NCBI GenBank assembly: GCA_019096065.1
Contig: JAGUCH010000004.1
Span: 3,162,001 to 3,226,000, forward strand
Direction: 5' to 3'
DNA: 64,000 nucleotides
Origin: Paracyclopina nana
Lineage: Eukaryota > Arthropoda > Copepoda > Cyclopoida > Cyclopettidae
Below, one piece after another: positions 577 through 9,189 of the stretch. The position numbers were made by a program, and so were the translations under genes. Position 1 is the first letter of the stretch. The number at the start of each line of letters is the position of its first letter. The notes beneath the pieces were generated by a model. It did no database searches. It worked only from the letters and a program-made list of their open reading frames with translations, and had not been told where the DNA came from.

Positions 577-2019
577 ATGAGGGTGTTCGTCACAGTTGGC
601 ACGACGAAGTTTGATGCCTTGATCAGCACTGTGCTGTCTGAAGAGGTCCAGAATGCGTTAAAGGCAAAGAACTACTCGAGCATTGTGTTGCAAGTTGGTA
701 CTAGTTGCCTGGAGCAGGAGAGTAAGTTCAATGCCGATTTTATGCGCTCGCTCTCTATATATATAGATGCGTCAGATGATTTAGATGGCTTAGACGATTA
801 TCTATATTTGTACTGTTTTCAGATGATTTTTGACAATCCTCATCTATATTTGGACTGTTACTTACCTGTGCTCAAGTGCGGTAGATTTTTTTAGACATCT
901 ATAATTGACCAAATATATATGATTTTAAACTTTAACCAAGCTCAAGCAAATATGTTATGGCTTTAGAACTATTGCTCTTTATAGTACATGGCTCTTTTAA
1001 AATCTGTATTTAGGAAAATAATTAGAACAGTTATCATCACTTTTCATTTTATGGTAGAGAAAATCCAAGAATTACTCATTAAAGAACTAAAATAATAGTT
1101 CTAATTTCATAAGGCCAAAAAGCTTCAAAATCTTTGTGCCAGAAATTCAATACTTCACTTGGTTTTGGCTCACTTCTCTTGCTTCATTTATCAGTTATAA
1201 TTTGGAAAAGGGAAATTTTTTAGAAAATTCTTATGAAATTCTTAATTTTAATTTCTTTTAGTTAGACTTTTACATAGTTTGGTCAATTCGCAATTGGAAT
1301 ATGCTTTAAAAATATTTTGGGTCTGGCTTAGCATTAGCTTTAAAGTAGCTGAGCATAGCTAATTGCAACCATCTAAATTAGTCCAAGCATAGATGATGGA
1401 AAAAAATCATCTATATATTTATACATCTTGTAAGTGCAGGAGATTGCTGGCACAAATATAGATGACGATCAACAAAAATCATCTATATTAAGACGAAAAC
1501 TGGTACAAATATAGATGACAAAGATGCTCATCTAAGTCACCTAAATCATCTAACATCTATATTTATACAGACTCGATTTTATGCAAATTATTGCTCATAC
1601 CATTAAATTAGGCATCAAAAGTGAAAAATTGTTGCTTGAAGAGGTGTTTACTCTAAAGCCTTCTTTGGCTGAAGATATTGCAAAGGCTGATTTAGTCATT
1701 GCTCATGCTGGAGCAGGCACTTGTCTTGAAGGTAAATGTGCTAAGAATTTCTATGGCCTACTATATGTATTTTGATATCTCTTATTTCCTAGTCCTAAAT
1801 GCTGGTAAGCCCTTGATTGTGGTTGTCAATGAAGACCTTATGGGTAATCATCAGATTGAACTGGCGGCAAAGCTAGCACAAGAAAAACATTTGGTGTTTT
1901 GCTTATGTTCGACACTCGAATCAACCATACGAACCCTAGATCCATCAACACTTATACCTTACCACCGAGGAAATGTCAAAATTTTCACCGATTTTATTGA
2001 CAACTTGATGGGGGTGTAA
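577..2019 (+). CDS. ALG13: UDP-GlcNAc transferase catalytic subunit ALG13
   Basis: ALG13 pairs with the membrane protein ALG14 on the cytosolic face of the ER and adds the second GlcNAc to dolichol-PP-GlcNAc in N-glycan precursor assembly. The protein opens with the family signature MRVFVTVGTTKFDAL. It continues with the UDP-GlcNAc-binding segments ADLVIAHAGAGTCLE and VVVNEDLMGNHQIELA, and ends near FTDFIDNLMGV. Exons are 577 to about 725, 1571-1731 and 1793-2019 (stop TAA). With that joining it has about 178 residues, close to the short animal form. The first donor is uncertain: the frame requires phase 2, which fits donors after 725, 770 or 809. Intron 1 is almost entirely an inverted-repeat element. 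RFT1 of the same pathway begins 11 bases after the stop. Confidence 0.88.
746..1573. mobile_element. Inverted-repeat MITE forming ALG13 intron 1
   Basis: The 11-base sequence CGATTTTATGC occurs at 735-745 and again at 1574-1584, directly flanking this segment like a target-site duplication. The two ends are imperfect inverted repeats: the reverse complement of about 755-800 resembles 1525-1570, both carrying repeated ATAGATG/CATCTATAT units and a shared CTAAATCATCT core. No long open frame is present, so it is non-autonomous. Joining the two copies of the flanking repeat restores one continuous ALG13 reading frame, so the element landed in an exon and now lies inside the intron. The 11-base duplication and subterminal repeats suggest a Mutator-like origin, but this is inference. 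Confidence 0.72.
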
Positions 2020-2030
2020 AACGTTCGAAA

Positions 2031-4539
2031 ATGACTGCAGAAGACACAAAATTGCTGAGAAGCAGCCTTTTGGCTGCTTTTCTTAATGCCCTCGTTGCCA
2101 TCTTTTTACGAGCTCTCACATTCATGCTGAATGCCTTCATTTTGAGGCGAATCTCTCATGATATTTTAGGCATTATCAACGTGAGACTTTTGCTATTAGT
2201 GGATACAGTGGTCTTCATAAGCAGAGAAGCATTCAGGAAAGCATGCTTAAAAACCCCTAAGAAGGGCGAATGGAGAGGGACTATCAACTTAGTTTGGCTG
2301 TCAGTGCCCCTGGGAATGCTGTCATCTCTTATTCTGGGATATTTGTGGGCCAACCACTTAGAGCTACCTAAGGAACTGGCTTTGCAAAGCCAATACAAAA
2401 CTGCTGTCATACTGGTGTGCTTGAGTGCAGTGACTGAGCTGGCTTGTGAGCCCTTTTTCGTGGTCAGCCAACTTTTCATGTGGGTTAAATTTCGATCAGC
2501 TGTTGACTTGAGTGGCCTCATCATCCGGTCTGTGTTATTGGCGTTATCTGTTGAAGTGGCACCCGAAAGGTAAACCATACTGCCTAATTTGGATAGTTGC
2601 AAACACCTATTACTTTACATGAAAATCTAGTGTTCACAATTATTTTATTCCCGCTATACATGATTAAATGCATGAGAGTCATGAATGTCACATTCCATTT
2701 CAGCACCGTTTTGCTGTTTGGCTGGGCCCATCTATTTTCTGCTGTAATTCAGTTGCTGCTTTACATGTTGGCATTTTCCAAAAACTTCAACTCTGAAAGC
2801 AACCAGCTGATGCCACTGAAGTCGCTGCAAGACGTGTTACCTTCCCCTTCTGACGTACATATTGATCAAGAGAGATGGAGTCTTGCAGCAAGCTTTTTCC
2901 GACAAGGTCTCCTCAAGCAGTTGTTGACAGAGGGTGAAAAATACATCTTCACTTGGTTCAGTCTTATGACCCTGGCACAGCAAGGCATTTACGATGTCAT
3001 AGCCAACTTGGGCTCTTTGGCTGCCAGACTTGTCTTTTCAAAGGTGGAAGAAGCAGCGTATCTATACTTCAATCAGTCTATTGTGACTCGAGGAGGCAAA
3101 GATTTGAGCCCGGCTGTACTCAACAATTTAAGAATTGTGCTTCGCGCAATGACACTATTTGGGCTCTTGGTCCTAACTTTTGGCATTTCTTACTCTCATC
3201 TTCTACTGCACCTATACGGGGGAACGAATTTGAGCACAGGCTTAGGGCCCCATTTGCTCAAGGGACACTGTGTGTTTGTGTTGTTCATGGCAATCAATGG
3301 AGTAAGCGAATGCTATTCCTTTGCTGTCATGACAAGTGCTCAAGTGGACAAGTACAATTACTTAATGAGTGGGATGACCATAGTGTTCTTAGGTATATCT
3401 GTTGAAATCCGTGTCCGCAAAAATCCGTACCGTAATATTCCGTTCCGTAAAAATCCTCACCGTGAAAATCCGTTCAGTCAAAATCATCTCAGTTAAAAAA
3501 CATTCAATATATTTTGATCAACATCGTCTTCTAGTAGAAATTTTTGTTTCTTCCTTATATGACATATCACGATTTTTTGTTTTTTAACCAGAATTGTCGG
3601 GGAACTTGGCTGATGTTTAATCACTGTAGCAACTTTTTAAATTGAACTCACCAAACCTTCCACAGAAAAGGACTACCTATAGGAAACCGTAAATTGTACT
3701 GTATTTATCCTACAGGCAAACTCATAAGATTTCAGACGGCTGATCGCTGCCTGCACAGTGCCGTCTGAAAAAGCAAAAGGCCTCATTTTCTTGATTATTT
3801 TTTGCTAGGTATAATCTTTACAGGCTTAAGTAGTGTCTAAGATTCAAATAGACTAATTATATTTACATCTTACTATATTTAGTGAGCTATCTTTCCTGAA
3901 ATTCCATCTTTTCCTCAAATTCTGGTAATTCATTTGTTGAACATGTCAAATAACCGCGCACACTGATGACGTCAAGCCGTCTGAACTCAGTGCCATCTAG
4001 TGCAGTCAGCTTGACTTGGGGTTCCTAAATGTATATGCGAATTAACGGAGATCTGCGGAGCTGATTATCACGGAACGGATTTTTACGGAACGGAATATAA
4101 CGGCATGGATTTTCACGGAACGGAATATAACGGCACGGATTTTTGCGGACACGGATTTGAACAGTACATTCTGTTCTTAGGATGCGCATGGATGTTTGCA
4201 TCCCTGTTTGGACCAATTGGTTTCATATTGGCCAATTTGACCAATTTCGCTATGAGGATATGCCACAATTGCATAACTATTCACAAGACAGCTCCCAAGG
4301 GCTGCAACATCAACCCCTTGACTGGCCTTGTGCCACCCTTACAATCAATCCTGGCTTTGACAATAGCAGGAGCCGTTTGCCAATATTCTGAGGCGACCCT
4401 TTATGATCCCTCGGATTTTAGATCAATTTTCATCCATGTGGCCGTTGGTGCTTTCACCTTTGTGTGCACGCTGATAGTTATCCTCACAAACGAAACAGAA
4501 ATTGTGGGATTCGCAAAATCACGTCTTAAAAGAGACTGA
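2031..4539 (+). CDS. RFT1: RFT1, Man5GlcNAc2-PP-dolichol flippase-pathway protein
   Basis: RFT1 is a polytopic ER membrane protein needed for lipid-linked oligosaccharide handling at the step where Man5GlcNAc2-PP-dolichol reaches the lumenal leaflet; whether it is the flippase itself is debated. Exons are 2031-2569, 2704-3392 and 4181-4539, giving 528 residues against about 541 in human. Recognisable stretches are the N-terminal NALVAIFLRALTFMLNAF helix, the central LKQLLTEGEKYI segment, DKYNYLM, GFILAN and the C-terminal HVAVGAFTF helix. Intron 2 is an inverted-repeat element whose removal restores exactly the spacing between DKYN and GFILAN seen in human RFT1 (34 residues). The start lies 11 bases after the ALG13 stop, which suggests a shared transcript. 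The 3' end converges on NEURL4. Confidence 0.92.
3394..4171. mobile_element. Introner-like inverted-repeat element in RFT1 intron 2
   Basis: The segment is flanked by a perfect 10-base duplication, TGTTCTTAGG, at 3384-3393 and 4172-4181. Its ends are long inverted repeats built of degenerate units related to ACGGAACGGAATATAACGG: 3404-3490 on the left, and the same sequence reverse-complemented at 4046-4165 on the right. Splicing uses AG|GTATAT at the left junction and TTCTTAG|G inside the right duplication. The removed piece (3393-4180, 788 bases) is therefore the element plus one duplication copy, and the exon is restored precisely. There is no long open frame, so the element is non-autonomous. 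A hairpin lies near its middle (3731-3769). Confidence 0.85.
3731..3769. repeat. Perfect 10-bp hairpin at the centre of the RFT1 intron element
   Basis: TTCAGACGGC pairs with GCCGTCTGAA across a 19-base loop. The loop contains GATCGCTGCCTGCA, which recurs in opposite orientation in the loop of a second hairpin at 33187-33222 with a different stem. A further copy of the right arm lies at 3976-3985. Confidence 0.6.
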
Positions 4540-4552
4540 ATAATCCATATGA

Positions 4553-4558
4553 TTTATT
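4553..4558 (-). terminator. NEURL4 poly(A) signal overlapping the stop codon
   Basis: AATAAA on the minus strand overlaps the TAA stop of NEURL4 (4557-4559). Cleavage would fall inside the 3' end of the convergent RFT1 gene. Confidence 0.5.
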
Positions 4559-7500
4559 AAATGAGCTCTAAGTGCACAAGTAAGGCTCTAATTGCTGTGT
4601 TGCCTTTTTCTTTGGTCAACCATTCGGTCTCATCAAGCTTGAAGTGCGGGTCAATTTCAGCAGCAGAACCTGTTGCCGATGATGGAGGACCAATTTTATA
4701 TGAGCCAGGGTGGATATCAACTTCGAACACAACCCTGGCTTTGTACTTTCTGCTGTTCTTTTTGTCCTCGAACACAGAGGATGAGCAGCTTTGAGGTATC
4801 TTGACAAAGTAGCTCAGTGTGGGAGAAAATACCAACTGTGGTGTGTCCGAGTCGTCTTCCTTTGACTCTTTTGACCTTGGTGTCAGTTTTGATGTCATGC
4901 TGCTCGGAACGGGCACAAGCTCTCCGTGATCAAGAATTTTTCGTATGGAAGACGGCTTGGTTCCGTGATATGCAGTGTGCCACGATTCTGTTGATTGCTC
5001 TGTTCTACTCGCCGCCATATTGTTGGTGGTCCAGGTGGATCTGATGGGAAACCTTGTCCAATTCATGGGTGTCCCAAAATCCTTGGGTGGATTGCCCTTC
5101 TTCACGTATGAATCTTCGCCCCTCGACTTGAAGCACTTGAGGCAATGGCATGTTGAGTTTTGCGCGAGCAGATAATGACTTGGAATGGAAAGGCTCGACT
5201 TGAACTTGGAGCAGAGCTTCAAGTAGTCGCATTTTTGACTTGGATTTGCAAGAGAACGTAAAATAATAGGATTGCGGTTGGCAGAACTAGTGACGACCTC
5301 TGGAGCATCCTTGATGCTGGGCGCAACAATACTGTTGGCATTCTCTTCTGCAGTAGCCGTGACGACGTCAATATTGGAAGCAGGGCTATTTTCAATGGCC
5401 ACCTCTTCACATTGCCCATACAAGTCAACTAAGCCGTAGCAAATAGGTGGAACCTCGGTTGCTACGACACCTTGGTCAACGCCATTGACAAAAAGTTTGA
5501 GATTCCTTTGATCATCAATCGTAAGCCCTACGGTCTGATTTTCGGCCAAGTCATCCAAATTACAAGCCAACTCTTCCACTTTATGGCCGTTCTGGAAAAG
5601 CGTACAGCCATTGATGACAATTGCGTTCTTCTTTAGCCCCAAGGCAGTCACGGGCAAGTGCATTTTGTCTGGACATTCAAATAGGGCTCCAATCATTAAG
5701 GACGAGGTCCACCTGTTATTCAACTTTTTGATTGTGACTTCGAATCTTTCCTCTTCTCGCAGAGGTCTGAATGTGACCACGAGGCCTTGATTGTAGCTGT
5801 CAGTTCGGACAGCTGACGAGTTGTCATTTTTCAGTTGAACATTTCTTCCATGATTATCATGAAATCCTAACAGTTGCTCCTTCCTTAAGGGCTTTTCATC
5901 CATTTCAAGCACAACTTCAAGAGAGTCCATCATGGTATTCATGCTAGGCAGTTTTTGAGCCGAAGACAAAACAGGACTGACTTGCGAAACTTTTGATACG
6001 CTCACAATTGATACAGATACTGTTGAGCCGTACAGTTCCACAATTGGGAATAACTTGTTGGGTACATGAGCAACAGCAACTCCACAGTCTTCACCATTGA
6101 GGAAAAACCTTAAAGAGCCATCAGAATGCACTCTCTTGACTCCCAGCCTGTCTCCGGACATCAGCCTGTCCAGTGAGGTGATGGCATAGTTCATTCTGAT
6201 GACATGGTCATTATGCTTTATGGCGTTCCCTTCTAGCCAGAAGACATCACCGCTCAAAGAGGCCATATTTTTTAATGGTGCCAATTGAGCCTGAGTGGGC
6301 CCCTGATCCATCAAAGGCAATTGACAGGCCACTCCAAACTTCAAAGAGCCTGACCATTGACGGCACACCTCATCAAGGCGGATTTCGAATATTTCATCTT
6401 CATTCGACAGCCAAAGAGGGCTGCTGGCAAAAACTATAGCGTTGGAAAATTGCCTGCTTCTCGAAGCAGACGAGTTGTTATTTTCAAGCTCCACATTTTT
6501 GCTTCTCCACACAGGGCTAAAACGATGGGCAACTTCAGTGCCAAGCATTGGTAAACTGACGTGGGAAGACTCCATGACCTGTGAGCTCGCCATCGAGTTA
6601 TTTTCATGGATCAGCCTATGGTGGCTCTGCACCAGATTGACCATAGGCCCTCCAGTACTTGATCCAAGGCCAAGATGATGTATAGCAGACACTTGAGCAC
6701 ACTGTCCGTACAAGTCTATCACTGCATACACATTGGAAGGTATATTTTCGCAAGCCACTCCTTGGTCCTCTCCGTTGATGGTGAATCTCAGTGACCCATC
6801 AAAGTGTCGCATCATTCCCAATCTGGAGCCCACACTGAGCGTGTCTAGATCGCACGCATATCCGTTTCTGATTGTCTGGCCATCTTGCATAACTGAGGAC
6901 CCGCTTAGCATCCAAGTGTCATAGTCGATGTCGGTCATTGTGTTGGGGAACTCGAGATCTTCGGGCCGAATGGAAGTCACGCCAGCTTCAATTGATCCTG
7001 ACCAACGCTCGACCATCCTCTCAATGACAATCTCAAACAGTTCTCCGTCCCTCAACGGTCTGTTGGACATAATAATCGCATCGTTGAACTCGCCGAGGGC
7101 ATTGGGCCGAGAAGCAGTAGCCCCATTGTTACTAATTCTTGCATTTCTGCCATGAAGGTGATGGAATTTGAGGTCTGATTCGATCATGCCACAACTACCG
7201 AAAAGGGTAGCGGAAGCTGATTCACTCTCCATTCCATCAGGAGATCTGTAGTCAGACAAGTCGATGATGGTGGCCTGAGCTGCTTGACCATACAGATCAA
7301 TCACTCCGTACACCCGATCAGGGACGTTAGTTGCCGCAGGACCTTGATCTTCAGAGTTGACAAAGAAATGCAAAGTACCATTCTCTTTGCGGACAACTGC
7401 AACCCTGTCGCCTGATTTCAACTTGTCAAGATTCTGACCATAGTCATCAATAACCGTCGTCCCATTGTGCATGACTCCATTGCCAGTGAACATCCATGTG

Positions 7501-9189
7501 CCAGATCGAATGTTGGTCATAGTAGAGGGAAAGTCCAAATCACCAGGAGAGTGTGTTGTCACGCCGATCTCAATGGAACCTGCCCACTTGGTGACCATTC
7601 TGTCAAGTCGAACTTCAAACACTTCATTAGGCTTAATTGGCCTGTTCGTCAGCACCACTCCAAAATTAAAGTCATCGTTAGCATTGGGTCGGTGGGCAGT
7701 CAATCCTCCATTTATGACAGCTGCATGTGACCCACAGCTGGGCGAGAAAAGCAGCCTATTCTCTTCTATCACGTGCTCTCTCATGGCTACATTTCTCCTA
7801 GTTATCAAGTTTTGCTCGTCCCGCTCATCTCTGTCTACAATTGTCACTTTCACTGTCATTCCATAGAGGTCGACAACACCCCACATTTGATTAGGCACTC
7901 TAGTTGCAGCCACTCCCTGGTCGAGGCCGTTGATGTAGAAATGCAAATTTCCATTTACCTTTCTCACCATTCCAATTCTATCACCTTCACTGAGCTCGTC
8001 CAAATTGAAATCTCCATATTCTCTTCTGGTGCCTTTGCCATTAGTGAGAATACCACAGCCCGACATCATCATCGTTCCTGACCTTTGGTTTGTCATAGTC
8101 GCAGGGAACTCTAGAGTGGCTGGGTTATGCGTAGTTATTCCCACTTCAATGGACCCTGACCACTTGTCGACCAGCCTATCAATTCTAATTTCGAAGAGCT
8201 CGTTGTCTCGTAAGGGTCGATGTGTCATAATGACACCGTTATTGAACTCGTCATAAGGCCTCTTTCGTTCAGCAGTTCGGTTATTGTTGCTCAATTTGAT
8301 GAGGGTGCCCTTGCGGTCGTGAAACCGTATCTTGTTATTATTAGGGAAAAATCCCTGAGAGCTACTGCTCGTGCTGTCGTTGTTATTGTTGGTGCTGGAG
8401 TTGGCTTCGCTCTGGCTCGACATGGCCGCGATATTGGAGTTGGTAAGATTATTGTGGGCACTGTTGCCACTACTGATTTGGTTGACATGATTGTGGGCTG
8501 AAGCTGCTGCAGTTGCCTCATTAGTCAAGTCATTGGACAAAATTCTTGCCTCCTGCGCGCAATTGTCAGTGGTGAGTGTGACTTGAGCGCATTTGCCGTA
8601 GAGGTCAATGACGGCCCAAACGGTGGCAGGCAAACCTGATGCCGCAACACTTTGTGAGACGCCATTGACAAAGAAGACGAGATCACCTGCCGCCGTACGA
8701 ATCACGCCAACTCTATCGCCTTCTTCGAGCTTGTCCAAATCTACAGCACCGTAATTCTCATGTACTGAGCGTCCATCCCTGAGAATTGAGTTGCCCGACA
8801 TAATCCAAGACCCACGCCGCAATTCAGTCGCCGAAGATGGAAGTGGAGAGTCCAACGTATCAGGATTGCAAGCTGTCACCCCAACCTCAATGGAGCCAGA
8901 CCATGCCGAAACTTTCTTGTCAATTTTGACCTCAAATATCTAATGAATTGCATTAGCCAATGGAAAAGTAAAGTGGCAGTCAAATGTGTACCTGATTTTC
9001 TATTAGGGGAGTGTTACTGAAAACCAGGCCATGATTGAACTCTTGAGCAGAATGAGATCGTGTGGCAGTTCGCCTACTGGAGCATAGAGTCACCAGCTGC
9101 CCGCATTTCGGGTGAAAAGTCGGCAAAACGGTGGACCCCAATTGAAGCTGGTTGTCCAGAACCTTGTTACTGTTGTCTGTGTTGGCCAT
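4557..9189 (-). CDS. NEURL4: Neuralized-like protein 4 with six NHR domains
   Basis: NEURL4 is a centrosomal scaffold that works with the ubiquitin ligase HERC2 and CP110 in vertebrates. Two exons, 9189-8992 and 8939-4557, join in phase 0 to give 1526 residues (human about 1562). Six Neuralized homology repeats are visible from the motif R(P/S)x..(E/Q)FNxGxVxxxxPLxxxExFEI. The first is split by the only intron; the others begin near residues 260, 450, 650, 840 and 1070. A low-complexity Asn/Ser/Ala linker follows NHR1. The C-terminal part has a CxC-type segment (STCHCLKC) and the SWHTAYHGT region typical of the NEURL4 tail. The second exon, at 4383 bases, is unusually long for this window. 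The gene is divergent from the BTB zinc-finger gene and converges on RFT1. Confidence 0.93.

Follow-up and report, generated by a model that had tools for sequence, protein, structure and literature searches.

How does a transposable element come to stand in a gene as an intron whose removal leaves the message as it was before the insertion? The question is raised by the second intron of RFT1 in the copepod Paracyclopina nana, within a 64,000-nucleotide stretch of contig JAGUCH010000004.1 (positions 3,162,001 to 3,226,000; hereafter the window, in whose numbering unprefixed coordinates are given) from a host genome of 92 Mb in 10 contigs. The insertion of an inverted-repeat element most likely made this intron. 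We assign a probability of roughly 0.86 to the reading that the intron was gained recently through an ordinary family of DNA transposons, whose copies become introns only when they land well.

Anatomy of RFT1 intron 2 and the site in relatives

RFT1 (2031-4539, plus strand) comprises three exons, namely exon 1 (2031..2569, coding), exon 2 (2704..3392) and exon 3 (4181..4539, including the stop codon), the last of which lies in a fully open frame. Intron 1 (2570..2703, 134 nt, GT...AG) is composed of sequence other than the element found in intron 2. From the gene structure we infer that intron 2 (3393..4180, 788 nt, plus strand) is spliced between the donor AG|GTATAT and the acceptor TTCTTAG|G. 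Exons 2 and 3 are in frame once 3393-4180 is taken out, which yields an RFT1 protein of 528 amino acids that matches Pfam Rft-1 in a profile search (residues 12-519, E 1.2e-119). Its best organism-named match is from Tigriopus californicus, at 47% identity, and the closest sequence overall is 76% identical.

The initial annotation had described intron 2 as an inverted-repeat element with a flanking direct repeat, and this is borne out. The element occupies 3392..4171 on the plus strand (780 bp, GGTATAT...TACATTC, with ends set by other copies), and the repeat TGTTCTTAGG is found at 3384-3393 and 4172-4181, a spacing of 788. The 5' inverted arm (3399..3498, plus strand), which contains degenerate 15-bp repeat units, and the 3' arm that is its complement (4065..4164, minus strand) are 100 nt each and 82% complementary.

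The origin of the bases at the two junctions proved to differ from the earlier description, in which a ten-base duplication supplied both the donor G and the whole acceptor. A ten-base duplication is excluded, as GG is constant at the start of the element beside unrelated flanks. The duplication is one of 8 bp, with the left copy, TGTTCTTA, in coding sequence at 3384..3391 and the right copy at 4172..4179, both on the plus strand; the 10-mer is this duplication followed by GG, which belongs to the element on the left and to the host on the right. Exon 2 ends with the G at 3392, with which the element begins, and the GT that follows is likewise part of the element, so that every base of the donor G|GTATAT is element sequence. 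Since the GGTATAT start is present in copies at unrelated sites, the duplication is not the source of the donor. In the acceptor, TGTTCTTAG|G, the duplication contributes only its last base, the A of the AG, and the host G at 4180 completes the dinucleotide. RFT1 intron 2 contains the element and one copy of the duplication, and nothing else. Because GG stands on both sides, once from the element and once from the host, the spliced RNA would be identical to the empty site.

It had also been claimed that removing the element and one duplication copy (788 bases) restores the frame of the empty site, and this held when the site was compared with relatives. Without the insertion, a single frame stays open over 384 codons, 265 of them ahead of the junction and 119 beyond it. 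In an alignment of 17 relatives, all 14 proteins that span the junction are gapless there and uninterrupted at the intron-2 site; of the other three, P0039 and P0041 end before the junction and P0012 diverges before it. P0005 (76% identical), P0016 and P0036 start 3, 17 and 19 alignment columns past the intron-1 junction and are continuous from there, through the site of intron 2, to the C-terminus, the pattern that genomic frames would show if intron 1 were present and intron 2 absent. When the exon 2-3 part alone was used as the query, P0005 was again the best match.

The element family across the genome

An internal end pattern, allowing at most 3 mismatches, gave 160 genome matches and none with a backward control, while two further end searches gave whole counts of 144 and 134 against backward-control counts of 24 and 33, so that chance matches are present among the weaker ends. 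When 181 of the ends listed (100 from one search and 81 with at most 2 mismatches, the listed 3-mismatch ends being omitted) were paired mechanically, 55 candidate pairs resulted, two of which are one locus (L054). We read 32 copies with their flanks, consisting of 30 loci that cover 31 of the 55 pairs together with L027 and L029. Four of the loci, L059-L062, were chosen for their shortness and carried about 300 bp of flank, insufficient for a fair frame test.

The copies read are 205 to 1867 bp long. An 8-bp flanking duplication is perfect in 22 of the 32 and has at most one mismatch in 28, compared with a repeat at only 1 of 972 shifted positions in a control on 27 of the copies; the flanking repeat is therefore not a matter of chance. 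The initial annotation had proposed counting the copies that lie in introns between duplications of 9-11 bases. The duplications are there, and intronic gains of this kind are few (2 of 32). Three copies are long, and L002 and L003 are 96% and 91% identical to the one in the window. The sequence that they share begins with GGTATAT and ends with TACATTC, and the 8-bp duplications beside it are TGTTCTTA in the window, TTGGCAAC in L003 and CATAATTT/TATAATTT in L002. With its inverted ends and a target duplication of constant length, the family has the features of a cut-and-paste DNA transposon, more precisely a miniature inverted-repeat transposable element (MITE).

The interior of the RFT1 element (3677..4027, minus strand) has a separate distribution. 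It is 88-92% identical to a different abundant repeat without the element's ends, and it was the sole matching part in 37 of the 40 candidates scored out of 233. This other repeat (L004-L008) has TATAGGAACC-type ends.

Duplications of about 8 bp are characteristic of MITEs of the hAT, P and some Mutator-like superfamilies, which the present element resembles in being short, in having inverted ends and a duplication of fixed length, and in showing no transposase. To our knowledge, its ends, GGTATAT/GAATGTA, match no superfamily. Among places resembling Mutator-like elements (MULEs), 1 of 11 lies within 1 kb of a family end, compared with 0.4% of random places when three contig sizes are guessed. 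A MULE-type transposase frame (G000:C7:3428250-3428960) lies 0.6 kb (620 bp) inside a lone family end, which is a weak link, and another (L048:6763-7518) lies 2.2 kb from a family end. Such frames are a possible source of transposase. None of nine places with a P-element-like transposase is within 1 kb of an end, counting listed ends only. The hAT dimerisation domain (PF05699) had no match in the genome and likewise none in 14 control genomes, and the Merlin (IS1016-like) domain (PF12762) had none at E 0.001 and was matched in 1 of the 14 controls. These searches for an autonomous partner of the family yielded no convincing link.

A second gene, landing sites and splicing

A comparable arrangement is seen in a gene of the SLC2/GLUT transporter family, where the 282-bp copy L027 (C2:17317854-17318135, minus strand) lies between duplication copies GCTCTTCA/GCTGTTCA that differ by one mismatch. 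The putative donor is TTCAG|GTATGT and the acceptor TTTGCTGTTCAG|G, and the exon, once joined, codes for the N-terminal region of the transporter (Pfam Sugar_tr, E 3.5e-13). The GLUT junction is gapless in 18 of 18 aligned relatives, drawn from 158 matches; the GLUT fragment shows 77% identity over 60% with a protein of Lepeophtheirus salmonis. P0121-P0123, 94-95% identical over the whole query, carry the GLUT exon in one uninterrupted frame, and each goes on with YV past GR, the final residues in common, as if reading into a GTATGT donor. Five other frames of this exon (P0124, P0125, P0126, P0127 and P0138) enter unrelated sequence elsewhere, after INAPE, VIN and LSDQ, hinting at further introns at other positions in the gene. 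Judged by gene structure, similar elements with the same end motif and layout stand as introns in two genes, and in both the whole intron is accounted for by the element and a single copy of the duplication; splicing would restore the empty site, exactly in RFT1 and with one mismatch in GLUT.

This second case bears on whether the RFT1 insertion might instead be a disruptive, unspliced allele that leaves the gene broken in this haplotype. In favour of such an allele, the splicing is a prediction, and the RFT1 copy is fairly young, given the 96% and 91% identity of the other two long copies. We nevertheless regard a broken gene as very unlikely, as GT and AG fall exactly at the frame-restoring positions, exon 3 is fully open and the GLUT gene displays the same layout.

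How often the family lands in exons was assessed by asking whether the insertion interrupts a frame that runs from stop to stop over 150 codons or more, with 50 to either side. Only 2 of the 32 copies, those in RFT1 and SLC2/GLUT, interrupt such a frame, although one surrounds 245 of 1200 positions drawn at random from the flanks of 20 loci, and 445 of 1500 in the window. Both long-frame copies have an A|G layout, in which the duplication ends in A and the host continues with G, compared with 2 of the 30 others (Fisher p=0.012), or 1 of 26 when the others are limited to copies with a good duplication (p=0.008). Near-edge copies fell below the frame threshold in L048 (8 and 150 codons) and L050 (2 and 170), and shorter frames were seen in L028 (127 and 9), L060 (29 and 109, antisense) and L061 (0 and 102, antisense). 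An intron reading was looked for in the short copies L059-L062 and L047, and none was found.

These counts also address the idea of a dedicated introner family, specialised in making introns. In its favour, the donor sits at the very tip of the element, two intron gains share one architecture, and the unread 24 pairs and lone ends could include more exonic copies. On the copies read, the low share in long frames (2 of 32, set against 245 of 1200 random flank positions) argues against such a family, which we consider unlikely. The likeness to introners drawn in the initial annotation therefore stands for the mechanism and, on the copies read, does not extend to a dedicated family.

Two further copies were considered as exonic cases and rejected. 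L055, in a major facilitator superfamily (MFS) transporter gene, and L028, in a collagen-like gene, were judged from the reading frame to lie just inside introns. In L055 (C2:15003918-15005784) the frame extends 123 and 34 codons to the two sides of the insertion, below the threshold, and the MFS match stops at the insertion site. Its duplication, GTTAGAAC, begins at an apparent exon boundary (CAG|GTTAGAAC), so that the donor region would have been duplicated.

An insertion in the ALG13-like gene upstream of RFT1 (window 722-1611) was rejected as well. The element there also has inverted repeats but is another one, and its 11-bp flanking repeat, CGATTTTATGC, stands at 735 and 1574. A donor at 722 and an exon start at 1612 keep the frame, and subtracting the element with its repeat leaves a 51-nt intron; the in-frame product has a spacing that we take to be like that of the human protein. 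The stop codon of this gene (2017-2019) is 11 nt from the RFT1 start (2031) on the same strand, giving an operon-like pair of glycosylation genes. On the other side of RFT1, a minus-strand frame of 1440 codons (4557-8879), whose repeats presumably resemble NEURL4, ends 17 nt from the RFT1 stop.

With a different element inside an apparent 51-nt intron of the ALG13-like gene, and with L055 and L028 read as just inside introns, it might be argued that the RFT1 element landed in an older intron at the same position. RFT1, however, has no intron sequence outside the element and its duplication, the left duplication copy is coding, and the relatives' proteins cross the site; an older intron is accordingly the least probable account, and we give it very little credence.

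We propose the following mechanism for the intron gain. A coding exon of RFT1 would have received, at TGTTCTTA|GG and in sense orientation, a non-autonomous cut-and-paste transposon with long inverted repeats and an 8-bp target duplication. The element's own GGTATAT would give a ready donor (G|GTATAT). Through the duplication a second TGTTCTTA would have arisen beyond the distal end of the element, and the A that closes this copy, together with the exon's following G, would make up the acceptor (TTCTTAG|G). Splicing out these 788 nt would then return precisely the mRNA that existed before the insertion. The same family seems to have followed the same route in the GLUT gene, and exon insertions without the A|G layout were probably lost by selection. 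The low exonic share and the A|G layout of both exonic copies fit insertion without a splice preference, followed by loss of unspliceable exon landings, which with two cases is suggestive and not proof. A broader proposal, which we hold at a little under even odds, is that the terminal GGTATAT makes an ordinary MITE family a latent introner: every copy that lands in sense at ...A|G within an exon is instantly a clean intron, and selection alone, with no preference at insertion, leaves these.

In the fold predicted for the RNA spanning 3384-4190 (-250.1 kcal/mol, z -10.2, equalled by 0 of 20 shuffles), a main stem reaches from 3399 to 4164, the first six bases of the intron are unpaired and its last sixteen lie outside the main stem. 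This stem would place donor and acceptor close together; it would also pair TTGAAC, otherwise the proposed branch site.

Several points weigh against an intron gain of this kind. The splicing of RFT1 intron 2 is predicted from gene structure, and the relatives were compared as proteins only. An AACAG 16 nt upstream of the proposed acceptor could compete with it, and the strong predicted fold, in which a small stem (4167-4173 against 4178-4184) pairs the acceptor AG itself, may hinder splicing. In L027, the Pfam match begins only past the junction, and the longest frame is antisense (202 codons), the coding frame having been assigned by homology. With only two exonic cases the A|G association is thin, and were L055 counted as exonic, one case in three would be without the layout. 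The paired acceptor and the weight placed on the L055 judgement slightly reduce our confidence in the intron gain.

Relation to known introners

The origin of new introns is a long-standing question, to which this family brings two apparent gains with legible duplications and uninterrupted relatives. The steps of landing, immediate splice-site formation and removal of unspliceable landings are thereby made testable, and the rule of a GGTATAT element at a ...A|G target in sense predicts which exonic copies should be introns. If ordinary MITEs are indeed latent introners, a first transposon-to-introner step would have been caught here, with the uninterrupted state legible in relatives.

No paper on the present family was found among the open-licence PMC literature. 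The mechanism is of a kind already described, with copepod introners in print (PMC9860276), and what stands out here is how unusually legible the step from transposon to intron is. According to that survey, introners occur in 175 of 3,325 genomes, copepods included, with only two groups represented among animals and land plants; there are families in which one splice site comes with the element and the second is taken from the duplication or from the exon. DNA-transposon introners in that survey share with the present element inverted repeats, a target duplication, copepod hosts and an mRNA length left mostly unchanged. The present family differs in its 8-bp duplication, in an acceptor to which the duplication gives the A and the host the G, and in its 100-nt arms. 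Introners are also enriched in genes in 161 of the 175 genomes, whereas the read copies of the present family are seldom exonic, and the smallest intronic copy number reported there is 5, compared with 2 gains among our 32 read copies, which cover 31 of the 55 pairs.

Like the present element, the introner elements of Amoebophrya (PMC7789003) have inverted repeats, direct repeats over the exon/intron boundaries and a hairpin that might draw the exon ends together. The Amoebophrya direct repeats are 3-5 nt and many of the splice sites non-canonical, whereas the present element has an 8-bp duplication and GT-AG sites. The tunicate Fritillaria borealis is likewise an animal in which transposons have been proposed as a source of introns, and the RFT1 intron, being GT-AG, is unlike that case (PMC13326754).
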